Positions 32,473 to 41,952 of a stretch of 53,849 bases of DNA are shown piece after piece. Each line of letters opens with the position of its first letter. Position 1 is the first letter of the stretch. The position numbers and the translations under genes were made by a program. The notes beneath the pieces were generated by a model, which did not search any database, was not told where the DNA came from, and saw only the letters and a program-made list of their open reading frames with translations. Source of the stretch: Cyclobacteriaceae bacterium (lineage in GTDB: Bacteria > Bacteroidota > Bacteroidia > Cytophagales > Cyclobacteriaceae); NCBI GenBank assembly GCA_026989535.1, contig JALSJD010000185.1, positions 1-53,849 on the forward strand. The letters are read 5' to 3'.

Positions 32473-34455
32473 ATGGTATTTTTACATCCTGAATTTTTAT
32501 GGGGGCTTTGGGCTATAATTATACCAATCATTATTCATTTGTTCGATTTTAGAAAGAACAAAAAAGTCTATTTTCCTGATATTTCATTTTTAAAACAGGT
32601 ACAACATTCCTCAAAAAAACCGTTGAGGCTCAAGCAAATCTTAATCCTGTTTAGCAGAATAGGCTTTATTAGCTTTTTGGTATTTGTTTTTGCTCAACCC
32701 ATACTATCAACCAATGCAACTAATAAATTGCATAATGGAGTAAAGCTAATTTATGTAGATAATTCTCAAAGCATGAGTGCGCTTTTAGCTTCTAATGAGG
32801 CTGGGTTGGTAGCGGCTAAATCTATTGCACAAGAAATTAGTAATAAATTACCCAAAGGGCAGGAGGTTGTGGTAGTTGATAACACCAGTTTTGGCAAGCA
32901 TCTTATGCCTGGTTCAACCAAAAAAAGTTTAGAGAAAATAGCTAACATCGTTTACACGCAGCAACCTTTCTCCATGGGGCAGTTAACTCTGGCTATTACT
33001 AATTTAGCGCAACAGTCAACCCTCATTTCAGATGCGTTTATTATAAGCGATTTTCAAAAATCGACAACGGCTAGCTATGGGTCAAAAGGCGATACGCTGC
33101 AATCGTTTTGGGTAGCAAACTTGCAGCCAAAATCTAATCTCAATTGTGTTGTTGATAGCGTTTATGTAATTAGCGAAGACATAAGCGCAGGAGAGCCCCG
33201 AAAAATTGAAGTGATTATTAAAAATTATGGAGACCAAAAGCAAGAAGCCTTACCCATAAAAATATTTTTAGAAGACAGGCAGGTATCTGCGGCTACACTA
33301 GATATTCCTGCGTACCAAACTAAACGAATTTCGTTTTCTTTAGGAACCGTTTCCCAATCTCAATCGGGCTATATTCAGCTCGAAGATTACCCCAATACGT
33401 TCGATAATGTATTCTATTTTTCACTCCCCAAACAAAAAAGGATACGTGTTTTCGAGATACAAGGTGATGCCCCCTCCACTTTTATTAAATCTGTATTTGG
33501 CAATAAAAAACTCTTTGCCTTTTATGCCAATAACCACCAAAACATTGATGCTAATGTGTTGAGTAATGCTGATTTTATCATACTGAACCAAATTGAAAAC
33601 CCCTCGAAAGAATTGCTGGCACAGGTTAAAAAATATGCCCAAAATGGAGGAACTGTTTTGGTTATTCCGAGTACTGTTTTTTCGGCCCAAAGCTATCATA
33701 TACTTTATGGTAAATTGGTTAAAACCACAAGCCAAAAACAGCAAAAATTAGGTACTCCAGTAGTAAACACACCGTTTTTTAAAGGGGTATTAGAAAAAAT
33801 GACTGGTAATTTTGAAATGCCAACAGCAACCCCGGTGTGGGATTGGGGGCAAGATCGCTCGGCCATTTTGGCTTTTGAAGATGGTTCTCCTTATTTATCT
33901 GAATTAACTAAAAACATATATTTTCTTCGAAGCCCTTTGATAGACTCAATGTCGAGCTTTCAAACACATGCTTTATTTGTGCCTGTTATGTACAAACTGG
34001 CTGCCAACTTTAGGTCACCTTCGCCTCAGCTATTTTACAGAATTAATAATGATGCCTTTTTTGTTGAGTTGGATTCGGTTGCATTAAAGGACATTATAAA
34101 ACTTGTTAAAGATGATATGGAGATAATTCCTAGCAAGGTTAAAGTTGGCAATAAATGGAAGTTGAGTGTACCCAATGAAATATTAACGGTGGGCAATTAC
34201 CAATTGATGGTTGGTCAAAAAATTATTGGCTGGTTGGCAATCAATTCAATAAAAGCGGAGTCTGATCTTAAAAGTTTTAATAAAGCAGAGATTGAGAAGC
34301 TTTTTGAACCCAACACGGTACATTTTATTGATAGTTTTAGTGCTAATCCAACTAATTTAATCTCTTTTGATGGAGGAATTACGCTTTGGAAGTACGCACT
34401 TATAATCTGTTTGTTATTTTTGTTGAGTGAAACTCTTCTCATTAGATTTCTATAA
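32473..34455 (+). CDS. BatA-domain membrane protein with periplasmic von Willebrand-like region
   Basis: 660 residues. The N terminus is the BatA double-transmembrane signature: FLHPEFLWGLWAIIIPIIIHLFDFRKNKKVYFPDISFLKQV, then KPLRLKQILILFSRIGFISFLVFVFAQPIL. A von Willebrand A-like region (IYVDNSQSMSAL, near 95) follows, with a long extracytoplasmic part that includes a ThuA/glutamine amidotransferase-like stretch (FIILNQIENPSKELLAQVKKYAQNGGTVLVIPS). A C-terminal membrane helix ends the protein. Such proteins are widespread in Bacteroidota and their role is unclear. It is the first gene of a tight cluster: the next ATG is 2 bp after its stop. Confidence 0.85.
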   Translation: MVFLHPEFLWGLWAIIIPIIIHLFDFRKNKKVYFPDISFLKQVQHSSKKPLRLKQILILFSRIGFISFLVFVFAQPILSTNATNKLHNGVKLIYVDNSQSMSALLASNEAGLVAAKSIAQEISNKLPKGQEVVVVDNTSFGKHLMPGSTKKSLEKIANIVYTQQPFSMGQLTLAITNLAQQSTLISDAFIISDFQKSTTASYGSKGDTLQSFWVANLQPKSNLNCVVDSVYVISEDISAGEPRKIEVIIKNYGDQKQEALPIKIFLEDRQVSAATLDIPAYQTKRISFSLGTVSQSQSGYIQLEDYPNTFDNVFYFSLPKQKRIRVFEIQGDAPSTFIKSVFGNKKLFAFYANNHQNIDANVLSNADFIILNQIENPSKELLAQVKKYAQNGGTVLVIPSTVFSAQSYHILYGKLVKTTSQKQQKLGTPVVNTPFFKGVLEKMTGNFEMPTATPVWDWGQDRSAILAFEDGSPYLSELTKNIYFLRSPLIDSMSSFQTHALFVPVMYKLAANFRSPSPQLFYRINNDAFFVELDSVALKDIIKLVKDDMEIIPSKVKVGNKWKLSVPNEILTVGNYQLMVGQKIIGWLAINSIKAESDLKSFNKAEIEKLFEPNTVHFIDSFSANPTNLISFDGGITLWKYALIICLLFLLSETLLIRFL

Positions 34456-34457
34456 TT

Positions 34458-35717
34458 ATGTCCACCCTCATTAGCTCTGTTAAAATAATCGACAAAAAAT
34501 CGAAGCACCATTTAAAGGTGCGTAATGTTTTAATTGCGAAAGGAAAAATTGAGTACATAGGAACAGATAGCCCCAAAGCATCTAACCTGATTAATGGCAA
34601 AGGGTGTATTCTTTCGCAAGGGCTTTGCGATTTGCAAGCCACCTATGCCGACCCCGGACTTGAACATAAAGAAGATTTAATTTCTGGTTCCGAGGCTGCC
34701 ATGGCTGGCGGATTTACCGATGTTGTGTTATTGCCAAATACGCAGCCGGTCATTCAAAAGAAAAATGATATTAAATACCTAACCAAAGGAAACGCTGGTT
34801 CCTTGGTGCAAATACATCCTTTAGGAGCCATTTCGGTAGATATAAAAGGAGAGGCCTTAACAGATATGTTGGATTTATCCGAAGCCGGAGCCATTGCTTT
34901 TTCAGATGGCCTTACGCCATTATGGAACGCTGACTTATTGCTCAAAAGCCTTCAGTATATAAAAAAAATAGACGGCCTCATTATCAATCGCCCCGAAGAC
35001 AAATGGTTGGCACTGTTTGGTGTTATCAACGAAGGGGAGAATAGCGCCCTACTGGGTATGAAAGGCATTCCTGCCTTGGCCGAAGAGCTGGCTGTGGCCA
35101 GAGATATTGACATTTTGGCTTATACCAATGGGCGGTTACACTTATCAAATATATCTACCGAAGGTGCTGTTAAATTGATTAAACAGGCAAAGAAAAAAGG
35201 CTTAAATATTAGTTGTGATGTAGCCGCACACCAATTGGTTTTTGATGATTCTTCGGTGCTTTCTTTCGATGCCAATTATAAAGTAAGCCCTCCGTTTAGA
35301 ACCGAATCAGATCGGAAAGCATTAATTAAGGGATTGCAAGATGGCACCATTGATGCCATTGTATCTTCGCATCAACCGCACGACCAAGAATGTAAGCAGC
35401 TTGAGTTCGATTTAGCCGATTTTGGCATTATTGGGCAACAAACGGTGCTTTCTTTGTTACATAATGTGGCTGAAGTAATTGGGTGGGAGCAAATAATAGA
35501 TAAGCTAACCTATGATGCCAGAGAAATTATAGGCCTGCCTAGTATTGCAATTAAAGAAGGAGAAATAGCCAATCTTATGCTATTTAACCCAAAAGAGGAG
35601 TGGGAATATAATTTGGGTTCTAACAAATCAAAATCTCAAAACTCACCATTAATGGGGCAAACCCTAGTGGGCAAAGTAAAAGCTGTTTTTAATAATAACA
35701 AGCAGTTAATTTTTTAA
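34458..35717 (+). CDS. Dihydroorotase homolog with a degenerate active site
   Basis: 419 residues with the overall fold of type I dihydroorotase (amidohydrolase family): ADPGLEHKEDLISGSEAAMAGGFTDVVLLPNTQPV is unmistakable. Key catalytic positions have changed, however. The metal-binding HxH just before the DPG segment is Q60-A-T62. The HCED-type His is replaced in INRPED (175-180). The His before VST is an Asn (LSNIST). The catalytic Asp of the TDHAPH motif is Ser (SSHQPH, 303-308). Asp150 in AFSDG is kept. The protein is therefore probably not a working dihydroorotase; it may be structural, like the inactive dihydroorotases that support aspartate transcarbamylase in some bacteria, or have a new role. 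Gene neighbours are envelope proteins, not pyrimidine genes. Confidence 0.85.
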   Translation: MSTLISSVKIIDKKSKHHLKVRNVLIAKGKIEYIGTDSPKASNLINGKGCILSQGLCDLQATYADPGLEHKEDLISGSEAAMAGGFTDVVLLPNTQPVIQKKNDIKYLTKGNAGSLVQIHPLGAISVDIKGEALTDMLDLSEAGAIAFSDGLTPLWNADLLLKSLQYIKKIDGLIINRPEDKWLALFGVINEGENSALLGMKGIPALAEELAVARDIDILAYTNGRLHLSNISTEGAVKLIKQAKKKGLNISCDVAAHQLVFDDSSVLSFDANYKVSPPFRTESDRKALIKGLQDGTIDAIVSSHQPHDQECKQLEFDLADFGIIGQQTVLSLLHNVAEVIGWEQIIDKLTYDAREIIGLPSIAIKEGEIANLMLFNPKEEWEYNLGSNKSKSQNSPLMGQTLVGKVKAVFNNNKQLIF

Positions 35718-35734
35718 TTGGAGGAACTTATACT

Positions 35735-36268
35735 ATGAAATTGAAAAACAACCTTTTACAAGCGGCAATAAAATTTGGGTTGATTGGGGCGGTTATGAAT
35801 ATAATAGCTTTACTGGTGTTGTTTTATATTGGCAAACATCCGCTATTATTAAACCCGTTGCTCGATGCACGGTGGCCATTATATGGCGTATTTATTTTTT
35901 TTGCTGCCAAATTTTTAAAAGAGGGCAACAGGGGTTTTCTCCATTTTTGGGAAGGCCTAGCCGTAGGTTTTTTGGTATATTTAATTATGGCGCAAATGGT
36001 GGCTGCTTTTATAGCCGTGTTTGGCTCTATAGAAAGCACTCATTTTTTAGCAGATTATATTCGAATAGCAATGGAGCAGATTTCAACTAATAGAGAAGCG
36101 CTTATAGCCCATAATATAAATGAAAAAACCTTAACCGATGCGCTGGAAATACTGCCAACTACCACGGCAAATAACCTTGCATTCGATTATTTTTTGAAAA
36201 GTATGCCAATTGGACTAATTTTAACATTATTAATATCCACCCTTATGAGGCGGAGAGAAGAAACTTAA
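35735..36268 (+). CDS. DUF4199 family membrane protein, paralog 1
   Basis: 177 residues with four predicted membrane segments: near 12-30, 45-60, 75-97 and 152-170. The KFGLIGAVMNIIALLVLFYIG opening and the GFLHFWEGLAVGFLVYLIMA centre (GF..(F/Y)xxGLxxG) are typical of DUF4199. An amphipathic region with ISTNREALIAHNINEKTLTDALEILP separates the last two segments. Function unknown. It lies 17 bp after the dihydroorotase-like gene and 12 bp before its paralog. Confidence 0.85.
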   Translation: MKLKNNLLQAAIKFGLIGAVMNIIALLVLFYIGKHPLLLNPLLDARWPLYGVFIFFAAKFLKEGNRGFLHFWEGLAVGFLVYLIMAQMVAAFIAVFGSIESTHFLADYIRIAMEQISTNREALIAHNINEKTLTDALEILPTTTANNLAFDYFLKSMPIGLILTLLISTLMRRREET

Positions 36269-36280
36269 CCAAACAAAAAC

Positions 36281-36808
36281 ATGGAAGACCAAAACGAACA
36301 AGTAACGGTTATGCAAGTAGCCATTAAATGGGGACTCATTTTAGGAATAGTATCAATAGTGCTTTTTTTAGCATTCTATTTTGGAGGCCTGATGGGCGAT
36401 TCGTGGACAGGGTGGCTTGGGCCAGTATTTAGCATAATAATTATGTTTTTAGCTCATAAGGAATTTAAAGATCAAGGCAATGGCTTTATGAGCTACGGGC
36501 AAGGTCTTGGTCTAGGAACCCTGATGTCTGCTGTTTCAGGAGCAGTATCTAGTGTATTTACATACATCTACATTAAGTTCATAAATGCAGATTATCTAGT
36601 TGAACTGCTTGATATGACTCGTGAAAAAATGGAAGAACAAGGGCAAGGAGAAGATCAAATAGACGCAGCCATGGGAATGATGGAAAAATTTATGTCGGCA
36701 GAGATAACGGCAGGGATGAGCTTGCTAGGTGCAATTTTTATCGGTTTTCTAATTGCTTTAGTTGTTTCCGCTATTACAAAAAATAACGATCCTTCATTAG
36801 AAGTTTAA
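36281..36808 (+). CDS. DUF4199 family membrane protein, paralog 2
   Basis: 175 residues, with the same plan as the upstream gene: KWGLILGIVSIVLFLAFYFGG, then FKDQGNGFMSYGQGLGLGTLMSAVSGAVSSVFTYIY, an acidic helical loop (TREKMEEQGQGEDQIDAAMGMMEKFMS) and a last membrane helix (GAIFIGFLIALVVSAIT). The second DUF4199 copy may pair with the first as a heteromer. Its stop codon is immediately followed by the ATG of the glycosyltransferase gene, which implies tight co-translation. Function unknown. Confidence 0.85.
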   Translation: MEDQNEQVTVMQVAIKWGLILGIVSIVLFLAFYFGGLMGDSWTGWLGPVFSIIIMFLAHKEFKDQGNGFMSYGQGLGLGTLMSAVSGAVSSVFTYIYIKFINADYLVELLDMTREKMEEQGQGEDQIDAAMGMMEKFMSAEITAGMSLLGAIFIGFLIALVVSAITKNNDPSLEV

Positions 36809-37777
36809 ATGATAAACCTTTCGGTAGTAATACCTTTATACAACGAGGAGGAATCCTTGCCAGAACTTTGTAACTGGATAAGCCGTGTGATGGATTCGCA
36901 CGGCTTTAGTTATGAGGTACTTTTAATAAATGATGGCAGCACCGATAATTCGTGGCAGGTAATTGGCAAGCTTAGCAAAACCAACTCCAACATTAAAGGA
37001 GTTAAGTTTAACCGTAATTATGGTAAATCTGCTGCGCTGGATACCGGGTTTAAGTTGGCCACCGGCCAAGTGGTAATTACCATGGATGCCGATTTGCAAG
37101 ACAGCCCCGATGAAATACCAGCGCTCTACCGAATGATTACCGAAGATGGGCATGATATGGTGTCGGGCTGGAAAAAGAAACGCCACGACCCCCTTTCTAA
37201 AACCATTCCCTCGCGCTTTTTTAATGCCACCACCCGCATGATTTCGGGCATTAAACTACACGATTTTAATTGTGGCTTAAAAGCGTACGACAGCAAGGTG
37301 GTTAAAAACATTAAAGTGTATGGCGAAATGCACCGCTATATACCTGTAATTGCCAAATGGCATGGGTTTACCAATATTGCCGAAAAAGTGGTGGAACACC
37401 GAAAACGTAAGTTTGGCATCACTAAATTTGGCATTGAGCGCTTTGTATTTGGGTTCTTAGATTTACTTTCCATCACCTTTGTATCTAAGTTTAAAAAGAG
37501 CCCTATGCACTTTTTTGGTTTGTTAGGCACACTTTCCTTTGTATTTGGCTTTTTATCAACCGCTTGGCTTATTTGGAAAAAAATGCAGGCTGTTTACATT
37601 TTTAAAACACCGATAGCACGTGAGGTGGTCGATCAACCCTTATTTTTTCTAGCACTTGTCGCCATTATCGTAGGGGTGCAGTTATTTTTAGCCGGCTTTT
37701 TAGGCGAGCTTTTGGTTATTAATAAGGCCGAAAAAGATGAATACTTGGTGATTGATACCATTGGAATTGAAAAGTGA
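36809..37777 (+). CDS. GT2 glycosyltransferase, polyprenyl-phosphate sugar transferase type
   Basis: 322 residues. The cytosolic GT2 domain starts LSVVIPLYNEEESLPEL and carries the metal-binding DAD motif (D93-A-D95-LQD). The acceptor-side features CGLKAY and HRYIPVIAKWHGF resemble the DPM1/GtrB/ArnC subgroup. Two membrane helices follow (about 229-253 and 270-293), as in GtrB-type enzymes that charge undecaprenyl phosphate with a sugar at the inner membrane. The sugar cannot be told from sequence. Last gene of the gapless run beginning at 32473. Confidence 0.88.
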   Translation: MINLSVVIPLYNEEESLPELCNWISRVMDSHGFSYEVLLINDGSTDNSWQVIGKLSKTNSNIKGVKFNRNYGKSAALDTGFKLATGQVVITMDADLQDSPDEIPALYRMITEDGHDMVSGWKKKRHDPLSKTIPSRFFNATTRMISGIKLHDFNCGLKAYDSKVVKNIKVYGEMHRYIPVIAKWHGFTNIAEKVVEHRKRKFGITKFGIERFVFGFLDLLSITFVSKFKKSPMHFFGLLGTLSFVFGFLSTAWLIWKKMQAVYIFKTPIAREVVDQPLFFLALVAIIVGVQLFLAGFLGELLVINKAEKDEYLVIDTIGIEK

Positions 37778-37857: not shown

Positions 37858-38844
37858 ATGTGCTTATATTCCATCATAATACCCGTTTATAACCGACCTG
37901 CTGAGGTGGACGAGCTTTTAGCCACGCTTACGGCTCAAACACTTACCAATTTTGAGGTGATAATTGTGGAGGATGGCTCAACGGAAACTTGTAAGGGCGT
38001 TGTTGAAAAATACACATCACAGCTTACTATTCATTATTTTTTTAAAGAAAATGAAGGCCAAGGCTTTGCCCGTAATTATGGCTTTAAAAAAGCCAAAGGT
38101 GATTATTTTATCGTGTTTGATTCGGATTGCCTAATTCCTGCTAATTATTTAGAAATTGTAGATAAATCTATTGAAAAGGAAGGTTGGGATGCCTTTGGAG
38201 GGCCCGATAAGGAGCATGAAAGTTTTACGATTACTCAAAAAGCCATTAGCTACTCCATGACCTCGCCTTTTACCACGGGCGGCATACGAGGTAATAAAAA
38301 GCACACGGGCACTTTTCATCCGCGTAGCTTTAATATGGGCATTTCCAAAGAGGTGTTTGCTAAAACCAAAGGGTTTAAAATCACCCGGATGGGTGAAGAT
38401 ATTGAGTTTAGCATTCGCATTATCGAAAATGGATTTAAGGTGGGTTTAATTCCGGAGGCGTATGTGTATCATAAACGAAGAACCAATTTAGTACAGTTTT
38501 ATAAGCAACTTCATTTTTTTGGCAGGGCACGCATCAATATTAGCCGTTTTTATCCTCAAGAATTAAAGCTGGTTCATACATTTCCTGCCTTGTTTTTACT
38601 AGGATGCTTGGCAATTTTGGCATTCTATTTTATTTGCCCACCACTTTTTAAAGTAGCCGTTGGATTGCTCGCTGCTTTTTACACACTCATTTTTGTGCAT
38701 AGTACTGTTTTACAAAAAAACCTTTGGGTTGGGTTTGTTTCTATGTTTACCTCTACCATTCAACTTTGGGCGTATGGTGTAGGGTTTATAAGTGAGGGGG
38801 CTAAAATTGTGGCACACAGGTACAACCTTGGCTTTTCAAGCTGA
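37858..38844 (+). CDS. GT2 family glycosyltransferase with C-terminal membrane helices
   Basis: 328 residues. The GT-A fold starts YSIIIPVYNRPAEVDELLATL, with metal-binding DSD (D88-S-D90) in FIVFDSDCLIPANYL. A likely catalytic-base region is GEDIEFSIRIIENGFKVG (ED motif). Three hydrophobic segments close the protein (about 240-262, 265-283 and 291-311). The acceptor and sugar are unknown. It is 80 bp downstream of the other GT2 gene, with a repeat between, so it may be in the same or a separate transcript. Confidence 0.87.
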   Translation: MCLYSIIIPVYNRPAEVDELLATLTAQTLTNFEVIIVEDGSTETCKGVVEKYTSQLTIHYFFKENEGQGFARNYGFKKAKGDYFIVFDSDCLIPANYLEIVDKSIEKEGWDAFGGPDKEHESFTITQKAISYSMTSPFTTGGIRGNKKHTGTFHPRSFNMGISKEVFAKTKGFKITRMGEDIEFSIRIIENGFKVGLIPEAYVYHKRRTNLVQFYKQLHFFGRARINISRFYPQELKLVHTFPALFLLGCLAILAFYFICPPLFKVAVGLLAAFYTLIFVHSTVLQKNLWVGFVSMFTSTIQLWAYGVGFISEGAKIVAHRYNLGFSS

Positions 38845-39138: not shown

Positions 39139-41952
39139 TTATTTACTCAAGTAAAGGTTTCGTTCCGAATAAATATTTAAGAAATAGTCGTCCATTAAAT
39201 CATCTATAAAGTAAATGGATTCGCCTGTTGATTTCATTTCGGGTCCTAAGGTTTTATTTACATTAGCAAATTTATTAAACGAAAACACAGGTTCTTTTAT
39301 GGCGTACCCTTTTTTGGTGGGGTTAAACTTAATGTCTTTCACTTTTAATTCACCCAACATAACTTTGGTTGCATAATTTACATAAGGCTCATCGTAGGCT
39401 TTGCATATAAATGGTACGGTTCGCGAAGCCCTAGGGTTGGCTTCTATAATGTAAACTTTATCATTTTTAATGGCAAACTGAATATTGATGAGGCCAACTG
39501 TTTTTAAGGAAAGCGCTATTTTTTTGGTATAGGCTTCAATTTTTCGAATCACAAAATCGCCTAAATTATAGGGTGGTAATACAGCGTAGGAGTCACCAGA
39601 GTGTATCCCAGCAGGCTCTATATGCTGCATTATACCAATAATATACACGTCTTCACCATCGCAAATGGCATCTGCCTCTGCTTCAATGGCTCCATCTAAA
39701 TAATGGTCGAGCAACACCTTATTATTGGGCATCTTTTTCATAATATCCACAATATGCTCCTCCAGCTCTTTTTCGTTGATTACGATTTTCATGCCTTGGC
39801 CACCCAATACATACGAAGGCCTTACCAATAATGGAAAATTTAATTTTTTAGCCAACTCTAAGGCTTCTTCGGCATCTTCTACCACTCCAAACTCAGGATA
39901 AGGAATGTTGTTTTCTTTTAAAAGTTTAGAAAAGCTCCCTCTGTCTTCGGCTAAATCTAAGGCCTCAAAAGAAGTTCCTATTATTGGGATACCATACTTA
40001 CTTAATTTTTCTGCTAACTTAAGTGCCGTTTGCCCTCCAAGCTGTACAATTACTCCTAATGGTTTTTCCTGCTCAATAATTTCATAAATATGCTCCCAAA
40101 ATACAGGCTCAAAATATAATTTATCGGCTACATCAAAATCTGTAGAAACCGTTTCAGGGTTGCAGTTAATCATAATGGTTTCATAGCCACATTCTTTGGC
40201 GGCCAATACGCCATGCACACAGGAGTAGTCAAACTCTATGCCTTGCCCAATTCGATTAGGGCCGGAGCCCAGCACTACAATTTTCTTTTTATCGCTTATA
40301 ACAACTTCGTTTTCATGGTCGAAGGTGGAGTAGTAGTAAGGAGTACTTGCAGCAAATTCTGCGGCACAAGTATCCACCATTTTAAATACTCGATTTATGC
40401 CTAGCTCCTTCCGTTTTTTATACACTTCTGACTCTAAACAGCCAAGTAAATGCCCTAATTGCCTATCGGCATAGCCTTTTTCTTTGGCAGTTTTAAATAA
40501 GTCTTTAGGTATGGTATCTAAGGTATATTGCTCTATGTTTCTTTCCACATGAAGCAATCCTTCAATTTGAGTTAAAAACCATTTGTCGATTTTGCTAAGC
40601 TTATAAATGGTAGAAAGTGAAATGCCTAATTTAAACGCATCATATACATGAAAAAGCCGATTCCAACTAGGATGCTCTAAGCTTTCCAATATCTCTTGCT
40701 GGTTTTTTAGTTCTCTTCCATCTGCTCCTAGTCCATTACGGTTAATTTCTAACGATTGGGTCGCTTTTTGAAGTGCTTCTTGAAAATTTCTACCAATGCC
40801 CATTACTTCACCTACCGATTTCATTTGTAATCCTAAGTGGCGGTCAGCACCTTCAAATTTATCAAAATTCCAACGAGGTATTTTTACAATTACATAGTCT
40901 ATGGCAGGCTCAAAAAAGGCCGAGGTTGTTTTTGTAATTTGATTACTTAGCTCATCTAAACTATAGCCTATGGCTAGTTTTGCTGCCACCTTAGCAATAG
41001 GGTAACCGGTAGCTTTAGAGGCTAATGCCGAAGAGCGCGAAACTCTTGGGTTAATTTCAATTCCAATAATCTTTTTATCATCTGGGCTTACCGAAAATTG
41101 CACATTACACCCCCCGGCAAATTGGCCAATGCCATCCATCATCTTTTTTGCTAAATCCCGAAGTTGTTGATATACGGTATCGGGCAAAGTCATCGCAGGA
41201 GCCACTGTAACAGAGTCTCCTGTATGCACTCCCATTGGGTCAAAGTTTTCGATGGAGCAAATAATAATGATATTACCGAGGCAGTCTCTAAGTAGTTCTA
41301 GTTCATATTCTTTCCAACCTAAAATACTTTGCTCAATAAGCACCTCATGAATAGGCGAGGCATGAAGGCCATTGGAAAGGGCTTGTTCAAATTCTTCAGG
41401 GGTATTTACAAAACCACCTCCTGTACCGCCCAGTGTGTAGGACGGTCGAATTACGAGTGGGAAACCAATTTCTTGGGCTATTTCTTTTCCTTGCAAAAAA
41501 GAAGTTGCGGTGTTGCCTTTGCAAACGCCCACATTTAATTCAATCATTTTTTGCCTAAACTTTTCCCTATTTTCAGTAGTTTCTATGGCTTCAAAATCAA
41601 CACCTATCACTTTTACGTCAAAGATTTCCCAAATGCCTGCTTTTTCGCAATCAATGGCAAGGTTTAAAGCCGTTTGCCCTCCCATGGTAGGAAGCACAGC
41701 ATCAATCTTGTGCTTTTTTAAAATTTCAATAATCGACTTTTTGGTTAAGGGCAACAAATAAATGTTATCGGCCGTAACCTTGTCGGTCATAATAGTAGCA
41801 GGGTTGGAGTTAATAAGGGTAACCTCTATGCCTTCTTCTCGTAACGAGCGTGAAGCTTGCGAGCCGGCATAATCGAACTCACATGCTTGGCCAATAACAA
41901 TGGGGCCACTACCGATAATCAATACAGATTTGATGTTATTGTCTTTAGGCAT
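39139..41952 (-). CDS. carB: Carbamoyl-phosphate synthase large chain lacking the MGS-like domain
   Basis: 937 residues. Two homologous ATP-grasp halves are seen: SVLIIGSGPIVIGQACEFDYAGSQA with RPSYTLGGTGGGF, and KKIVVLGSGPNRIGQGIEFDYSCVH with RPSYVLGGQGM. Both metal-site segments (INPRVSRSSALASKATGYP; EANPRASRTVPF) are present. The C-terminal allosteric domain of about 130 residues found in E. coli CarB (1073 residues) is missing; the protein ends DYFLNIYSERNLYLSK just after the second half. It makes carbamoyl phosphate for arginine and pyrimidines together with CarA, which is not in the window. Confidence 0.96.
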   Translation of the reverse strand: MPKDNNIKSVLIIGSGPIVIGQACEFDYAGSQASRSLREEGIEVTLINSNPATIMTDKVTADNIYLLPLTKKSIIEILKKHKIDAVLPTMGGQTALNLAIDCEKAGIWEIFDVKVIGVDFEAIETTENREKFRQKMIELNVGVCKGNTATSFLQGKEIAQEIGFPLVIRPSYTLGGTGGGFVNTPEEFEQALSNGLHASPIHEVLIEQSILGWKEYELELLRDCLGNIIIICSIENFDPMGVHTGDSVTVAPAMTLPDTVYQQLRDLAKKMMDGIGQFAGGCNVQFSVSPDDKKIIGIEINPRVSRSSALASKATGYPIAKVAAKLAIGYSLDELSNQITKTTSAFFEPAIDYVIVKIPRWNFDKFEGADRHLGLQMKSVGEVMGIGRNFQEALQKATQSLEINRNGLGADGRELKNQQEILESLEHPSWNRLFHVYDAFKLGISLSTIYKLSKIDKWFLTQIEGLLHVERNIEQYTLDTIPKDLFKTAKEKGYADRQLGHLLGCLESEVYKKRKELGINRVFKMVDTCAAEFAASTPYYYSTFDHENEVVISDKKKIVVLGSGPNRIGQGIEFDYSCVHGVLAAKECGYETIMINCNPETVSTDFDVADKLYFEPVFWEHIYEIIEQEKPLGVIVQLGGQTALKLAEKLSKYGIPIIGTSFEALDLAEDRGSFSKLLKENNIPYPEFGVVEDAEEALELAKKLNFPLLVRPSYVLGGQGMKIVINEKELEEHIVDIMKKMPNNKVLLDHYLDGAIEAEADAICDGEDVYIIGIMQHIEPAGIHSGDSYAVLPPYNLGDFVIRKIEAYTKKIALSLKTVGLINIQFAIKNDKVYIIEANPRASRTVPFICKAYDEPYVNYATKVMLGELKVKDIKFNPTKKGYAIKEPVFSFNKFANVNKTLGPEMKSTGESIYFIDDLMDDYFLNIYSERNLYLSK

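Follow-up and report, generated by a model that had tools for sequence, protein, structure and literature searches.

A pseudo-dihydroorotase of Bacteroidia as a probable non-catalytic subunit of aspartate transcarbamylase

A gene in the genome of a Cyclobacteriaceae bacterium codes for a full-length homolog of type I dihydroorotase (DHO) whose sequence lacks the metal site, a pseudo-dihydroorotase (pDHO). This ancient pseudoenzyme is present in about 90% of 197 sampled genomes of the class Bacteroidia, normally beside a separate PyrC. By analogy with characterised complexes, pDHO is likely to be a structural, perhaps regulatory, non-catalytic subunit of the Bacteroidia aspartate transcarbamylase (ATCase, PyrB) holoenzyme. 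ATCase catalyses the reaction that precedes that of DHO. This reading is based on the homology of the fold, the loss of the active site, the linkage of intact orthologs to pyrB, the co-inheritance of pDHO with one type of PyrB, the lack of PyrI in the genomes concerned and the absence of pDHO where PyrB has been exchanged or lost.

A dihydroorotase fold without its metal site

The pDHO gene was found in a stretch of 53,849 nucleotides, hereafter the window. Its reading frame of 419 codons is free of internal stops and starts 2 bp past the end (34455) of a BatA-like ORF, in agreement with a preliminary description of the locus. The features of the gene are the following (residue numbers of active DHO are those of Aquifex aeolicus):

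34458 to 35717, forward strand: pDHO, 419 amino acids, type I DHO fold without metal ligands (profile, alignment and structure model)
34635 to 34649, forward strand: degenerate HxH(x)R motif, Q60-A-T62-Y-A64 for H61xH63xR65 (alignment)
34905 to 34910, forward strand: D150-G151 for D152-D153, metal ligand D153 lost (alignment)
34989 to 34997, forward strand: R178-P179-E180 for H180-C181-E182, HCED changed to RPED (alignment)
35148 to 35150, forward strand: N231 for metal ligand H232 (alignment)
35367 to 35381, forward strand: SHQPH (residues 304 to 308) for DHAPH, D305 lost; H306 kept in 62 of 62 relatives (alignment)

The protein scored 310 bits against the DHO subfamily model TIGR00857 (cut-off 279) and passed neither of the equivalog models PRK09357 and PRK09236, the best score being 327 bits against a cut-off of 701. 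Pfam Amidohydro_1 did not match it, although it does match the separate PyrC of the same genome. The DHO of A. aeolicus is its best match in both sequence and fold, with an alignment of nearly full length (E 1.2e-75). AlphaFold2 predicted a confident full DHO fold (pLDDT 95.3, pTM 0.94), for which Foldseek returned 3d6n_A, the Aquifex DHO in its ATCase-bound state, as the best PDB match (TM 0.94). The type I scaffold is intact, as had been proposed from the sequence.

With the roles of the metal ligands taken from PMC3880350, alignment revealed that all six residues of the site are replaced (H61 by Q60, H63 by T62, D153 by G151, H180 by R178, H232 by N231 and D305 by S304), while Aquifex DHO and the intact orthologs keep them. 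The conserved R65 is also replaced, by A64; D152, H306 and H309 are retained as D150, H305 and H308. Four of these losses (HxH to QxT, the histidine of HCED, histidine to asparagine and the aspartate of TDHAPH to serine) had been correctly recognised in the preliminary description, which understated the damage, D153 and R65 being gone as well. The name dihydroorotase comes from the matching model, and the protein itself is very probably not a dihydroorotase.

Pyrimidine genes in the same genome

Both a second DHO and a PyrB are encoded elsewhere in the genome. The separate full-length PyrC (G000:C96; L002:1453-2778) is of the PRK09236 type (718 bits, cut-off 535) and is related to 2gwn of P. 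gingivalis. Because this second, presumed active enzyme is present, pDHO is probably dispensable for the dihydroorotase step. The first histidine of HxH in this PyrC is a glutamine (DDQVHFREPG), as it is in 2gwn, with the remaining motifs intact; the histidine is retained (DDHVHF) in the PyrC of several genomes of the class.

The pyrB gene lies directly behind pyrR and its product scored 320 bits (cut-off 237). No PyrI regulatory subunit was found in this genome. For PyrB, the Aquifex partner 3d6n_B was matched at 6e-55; this chain is among its closest solved relatives, together with the PyrB proteins of B. subtilis and S. aureus. To our knowledge, the latter two function without a DHO. Adjacency to pyrB, usual for PyrX and not defining, is absent, pDHO and pyrB being on different contigs (G000:C185 and G000:C72). 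The Pseudomonas-type N-terminal extension of PyrB, likewise usual and not defining, is also absent: the alignments of this 308-amino acid protein with solved PyrB chains start at its residue 7-9 and at residues 2-4 of those chains. The PyrB of Aquifex does not have the extension either.

A carB gene (39139-41952, reverse strand) is located 3.4 kb downstream of pDHO. The preliminary description had stated that no pyrimidine genes follow pDHO, which holds for the gene cluster itself but not for this gene on the other strand. As a link between pDHO and pyrimidine synthesis carB was discarded, since it stands beside pDHO in no other Bacteroidia locus examined. The CarB protein has only 937 amino acids and matches profile positions 1-920 of 1058, so that its C-terminal part seems to be missing. 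In E. coli CarB, the C-terminal part contains the allosteric effector domain. The shortened CarB might have a bearing on how this pathway is regulated.

Distribution and selective loss of active-site residues

A match to pDHO was obtained in all 60 genomes of the same family, 59 of which carry a close ortholog without stops. Of the 197 class genomes sampled, 173 contained a match with E <= 1e-30; copies that are divergent or fragmentary were picked up by a profile search in others, chiefly of families f83 and f72. The metal site is broken in every aligned Bacteroidia ortholog (62 relatives), with D153, H61 and H232 lost in all of them, and intact in the aligned orthologs from other classes of the phylum (L124-L129). 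The earlier suggestion that the losses go beyond noise is thus well supported. In a tree of 56 rows, a single branch (support 100/99) divided the pseudoenzymes from both the intact orthologs and the separate PyrC proteins; families f72 and f83 are joined by long branches and their exact place is unsure.

The selectivity of the loss was evaluated with 68 residues that are invariant in nine intact proteins and were scored in the 62 pseudoenzymes. The 14 least retained (H61, D153, H232, E255, A307, R65, G154, H63, V121, H180, M93, H309, H260 and D305) show a retention of 0-31%; the six metal ligands are all among them, as are several further residues from the same motifs. Retention of the other 54 ranges from 42 to 100%, with most above 85%. 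Position 61 is occupied by Q, R, G, S, N, F or K and position 63 by 15 different residues; among the aligned relatives no new shared constellation was found at the lost positions, which vary without converging on a motif. Drift of the active-site positions in a protein that is otherwise kept is expected if catalysis is no longer selected while the fold and surface are. Together with the conservation of orthologs across the class, this selective loss gives good support to the proposal, made from the single sequence, of selection for a non-catalytic or new function.

Two other interpretations were considered here. The protein might still be catalytic, as a DHO that can do without the classical zinc site or as an amidohydrolase that has acquired a new reaction. 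DHO activity has been reported for a Pseudomonas PyrC paralog without zinc residues, according to a citation in PMC2770081, and the substitutions H180A and H232A are tolerated by Aquifex DHO (PMC3880350). In pDHO, however, the losses extend to the alpha-site ligands H61, H63 and D153 and to the conserved R65 and D305, the lost positions share no new arrangement among relatives, and a separate PyrC is present, all of which makes retained catalysis very improbable. The opposite view, that of a decaying relic without function, could call upon the very divergent copies of families f72 and f83. We give it hardly any credence, less than to a surviving enzyme, given the open frames in almost all class genomes and the conservation of the protein: amino-acid identity to the nearest sampled relatives is 72% even with saturated synonymous sites, which make dN/dS uninformative, and 20 columns are invariant over 36 sequences.

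The pDHO proteins of family f83 (L180, L183, L186, L191 and L193) are extremely divergent, with Trp-rich former active sites, and the PyrB proteins of the same genomes are divergent too. In both f72 and f83, pDHO and PyrB are unusually divergent together, as would be expected of interacting partners, with other causes possible.

Co-inheritance with one type of PyrB and exclusion of PyrI

In the same family, 59 of the 60 genomes have pDHO and no PyrI. The only genome without pDHO (G021) is also the only one with PyrI, where pyrI overlaps a pyrB of foreign type (L130) whose product is 31% identical to the PyrB of the genome described here. G021 also has an unusual PyrC (L168), which suggests an exchange of several pathway genes.

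The same pattern extends to the class. PyrI was detected in nine of the 197 genomes, none of which has pDHO, and no genome among those checked for both proteins contains them together. None of the 11 class genomes with a non-native type of PyrB has pDHO. The native type occurs in 180 genomes, and all but one of these (G399) have pDHO or a related DHO, a count that includes the divergent or fragmentary copies of f83 and f72 and a metal-intact DHO in G129. The association of PyrB type with pDHO has a Fisher p value of 5e-17, overstated because the genomes are related. Exchanges of PyrB are seen in several lineages (f11/f93/f98/f102, G021, G423 and f6); the PyrI genomes of the class may be mostly one clade, so that the independent events are few.

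Loss of PyrB gives a similar picture: four of the six genomes without PyrB (G222, G381, G410 and G510) also lack pDHO; G222 and family f80 have neither protein. Exceptions are G367 and G463, which have pDHO-like genes and no PyrB found in assemblies of 230 and 360 contigs, G399, in which PyrB is present and no pDHO was found, and G466, which has both types of PyrB. Three further arrangements were observed. A PyrB of the type associated with PyrI occurs in G423, where neither PyrI nor pDHO was found. The six genomes of family f6 (L196-L202), in which neither pDHO nor PyrI was found, encode a PyrB that diverges strongly (stem length 2.9) and is a candidate partner-free ATCase. Finally, G129, a relative from the same order and a congener of G222, lacks the class-typical pDHO and has pyrB with an adjacent metal-intact DHO (L166/L206).

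Metal-intact orthologs linked to pyrB

In three loci of sister classes (L124, L126 and L129), the metal-intact ortholog is the third gene of a pyrR-pyrB-DHO operon, with no more than a few tens of bases between it and pyrB, or an overlap of the two, and the PyrB proteins of these operons are 61-65% identical to that of the present genome. A Nitrospira MAG (L009) has the same three genes followed by carA and carB. In three other sister-class loci (L125, L127 and L128), an intact DHO is found with no pyrB beside it. Linkage to pyrB was seen only for metal-intact orthologs; pDHO is beside pyrB neither in the present genome nor in any pDHO locus fetched with about 7 kb of flanks. On the basis of homology and gene order, with pyrB still behind pyrR in this genome, the window gene is most simply read as the displaced third gene of a pyrR-pyrB-DHO operon.

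The envelope-gene neighbourhood

The genes around pDHO in the window are the following:

32473 to 34455, forward strand: BatA-like membrane protein (PF07584, TIGR02226), 2 bp upstream of pDHO; conserved neighbour that persists without pDHO
35735 to 36268, forward strand: DUF4199 protein a; conserved neighbour
36281 to 36808, forward strand: DUF4199 protein b; conserved neighbour
36809 to 37777, forward strand: GT2 glycosyltransferase of polyprenyl-phosphate type (GT2a); conserved neighbour
37858 to 38844, forward strand: second GT2 glycosyltransferase; neighbour

The order BatA, pDHO, DUF4199, GT2 is old and widely kept: it is found in most relatives of the family, and at least BatA followed by pDHO in most Flavobacteriaceae loci. 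This conservation and the distance of 2 bp from BatA would suit an envelope function, in which the DHO scaffold was recruited to the BatA-like, DUF4199 and polyprenyl-phosphate glycosyltransferase proteins, for instance to act as a scaffold or to bind a ligand. The preliminary description had hinted at the envelope operon as a clue to function. The hint finds no support, since in three genomes (G129, G476 and G455) BatA is directly followed by DUF4199-type genes and GT2a with no pDHO between them, and in G222 BatA and GT2a are still near each other, in looser order and again without pDHO. The persistence of the cluster argues against an obligate role of pDHO with the envelope proteins, and an envelope function deduced from synteny was rejected. 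This comparison gains nothing from the six f6 genomes and several of the PyrI genomes, in which no match to BatA was obtained. In addition, pDHO is kept in some families where BLAST recognised neither a BatA nor a DUF4199 gene next to it, and pDHO instead follows the type of PyrB and the absence of PyrI. We consider an envelope function improbable, if less so than retained catalysis.

Proposed origin, known systems and significance

The history proposed for pDHO is the following. The ancestral protein would have been an active type I DHO encoded in a pyrR-pyrB-pyrC operon and a physical partner of PyrB, as in Aquifex. Once dihydroorotase catalysis had been taken over by a second PyrC of PRK09236 type, the old DHO would have lost its zinc and substrate ligands and kept its fold; at some stage, the order of the steps being conjectural, the gene would have come to lie behind BatA. 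Co-transcription with steadily expressed genes is one possible, speculative reason for its staying there. In Bacteroidota, pDHO would bind PyrB and complete the ATCase holoenzyme by analogy with P. aeruginosa, probably as a dodecamer of the Aquifex and Pseudomonas kind, and PyrB would depend on it to assemble or to be active. The interface would be expected to resemble that of 3d6n and might be lined by the conserved stretches 188-209, 275-285 and 305-323.

The principle of an ATCase subunit that is a DHO without catalytic function is already known. The ATCase of P. aeruginosa is monomeric and inactive without its pseudo-DHO, and assembly of the two proteins raises the melting temperature from 38-44 to 77 degrees C (PMC7053772). 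The pseudo-DHO of P. aeruginosa and P. putida (PyrC', or PyrX, of class A ATCase; PMC7053772; Schurr 1995) resembles the window protein as a type I-like DHO that lacks zinc ligands and accompanies a separate PyrC. Its role as an ATCase subunit, proposed here by analogy for pDHO, has been shown there. The present gene differs in being unlinked from pyrB and placed in an envelope-gene cluster, in the lack of an N-terminal extension on the corresponding PyrB and in belonging to a different phylum. The DHO-ATCase dodecamer of A. aeolicus (3d6n, 4bjh) contains the full-length best match of pDHO and a PyrB that is among the closest solved relatives of the present one, but its DHO is catalytically active and has the six ligands (H61, H63, D153, H180, H232 and D305) that pDHO lacks. 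In Sinorhizobium meliloti, smc01361, a proposed PyrX, is also a presumed inactive DHO beside a separate PyrC, and its disruption leads to pyrimidine auxotrophy (PMC5929573), a genetic argument for a role of this kind; it adjoins pyrB, unlike pDHO, and the complex is inferred there too. A pseudo-DHO retained together with ATCase is likewise known as the inactive DHO-like domain of a fungal CAD-like protein (5nnl), which is part of a fused polypeptide and only weakly similar (E 2.8e-4, residues 219-262). The Pseudomonas precedent, already cited in the preliminary description, remains the best explanation in view of the co-inheritance with one type of PyrB, the lack of PyrI and the pyrB-linked ancestor. 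Our confidence is tempered by the exceptional genomes (G367, G399, G463 and G466) and by the indirect basis of PyrB binding.

An extension of this role is conceivable, if rather unlikely, in which pDHO functionally replaces PyrI: the former pocket or conserved loops would bind an effector, such as a nucleotide or an intermediate of the pathway, and control ATCase, possibly linked to envelope synthesis by co-expression of pDHO with BatA and the glycosyltransferases. If so, a whole class of bacteria would have a regulatory ATCase holoenzyme of an additional kind.

No report of an inactive DHO in Bacteroidetes or Flavobacterium was found in the open-access literature, and an earlier mention in subscription papers is possible. 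Within that literature, the occurrence of pDHO throughout Bacteroidia, its move away from pyrB into a cluster of envelope genes and its mutual exclusion with PyrI are apparently unreported. The locus also serves as a warning that gene neighbourhood alone, here an envelope operon, can mislead on function. The intact DHO of the pyrRBC operon, the relocated pseudoenzyme and its complete loss on exchange of PyrB form a natural series that is useful for studying how pseudoenzymes turn into obligate subunits. If confirmed, our findings would show the make-up, in a large bacterial class, of the enzyme for the first committed step of pyrimidine synthesis, and would provide a case of a dead enzyme that is retained because of its partner, not its reaction, and is dropped once that partner has been replaced.
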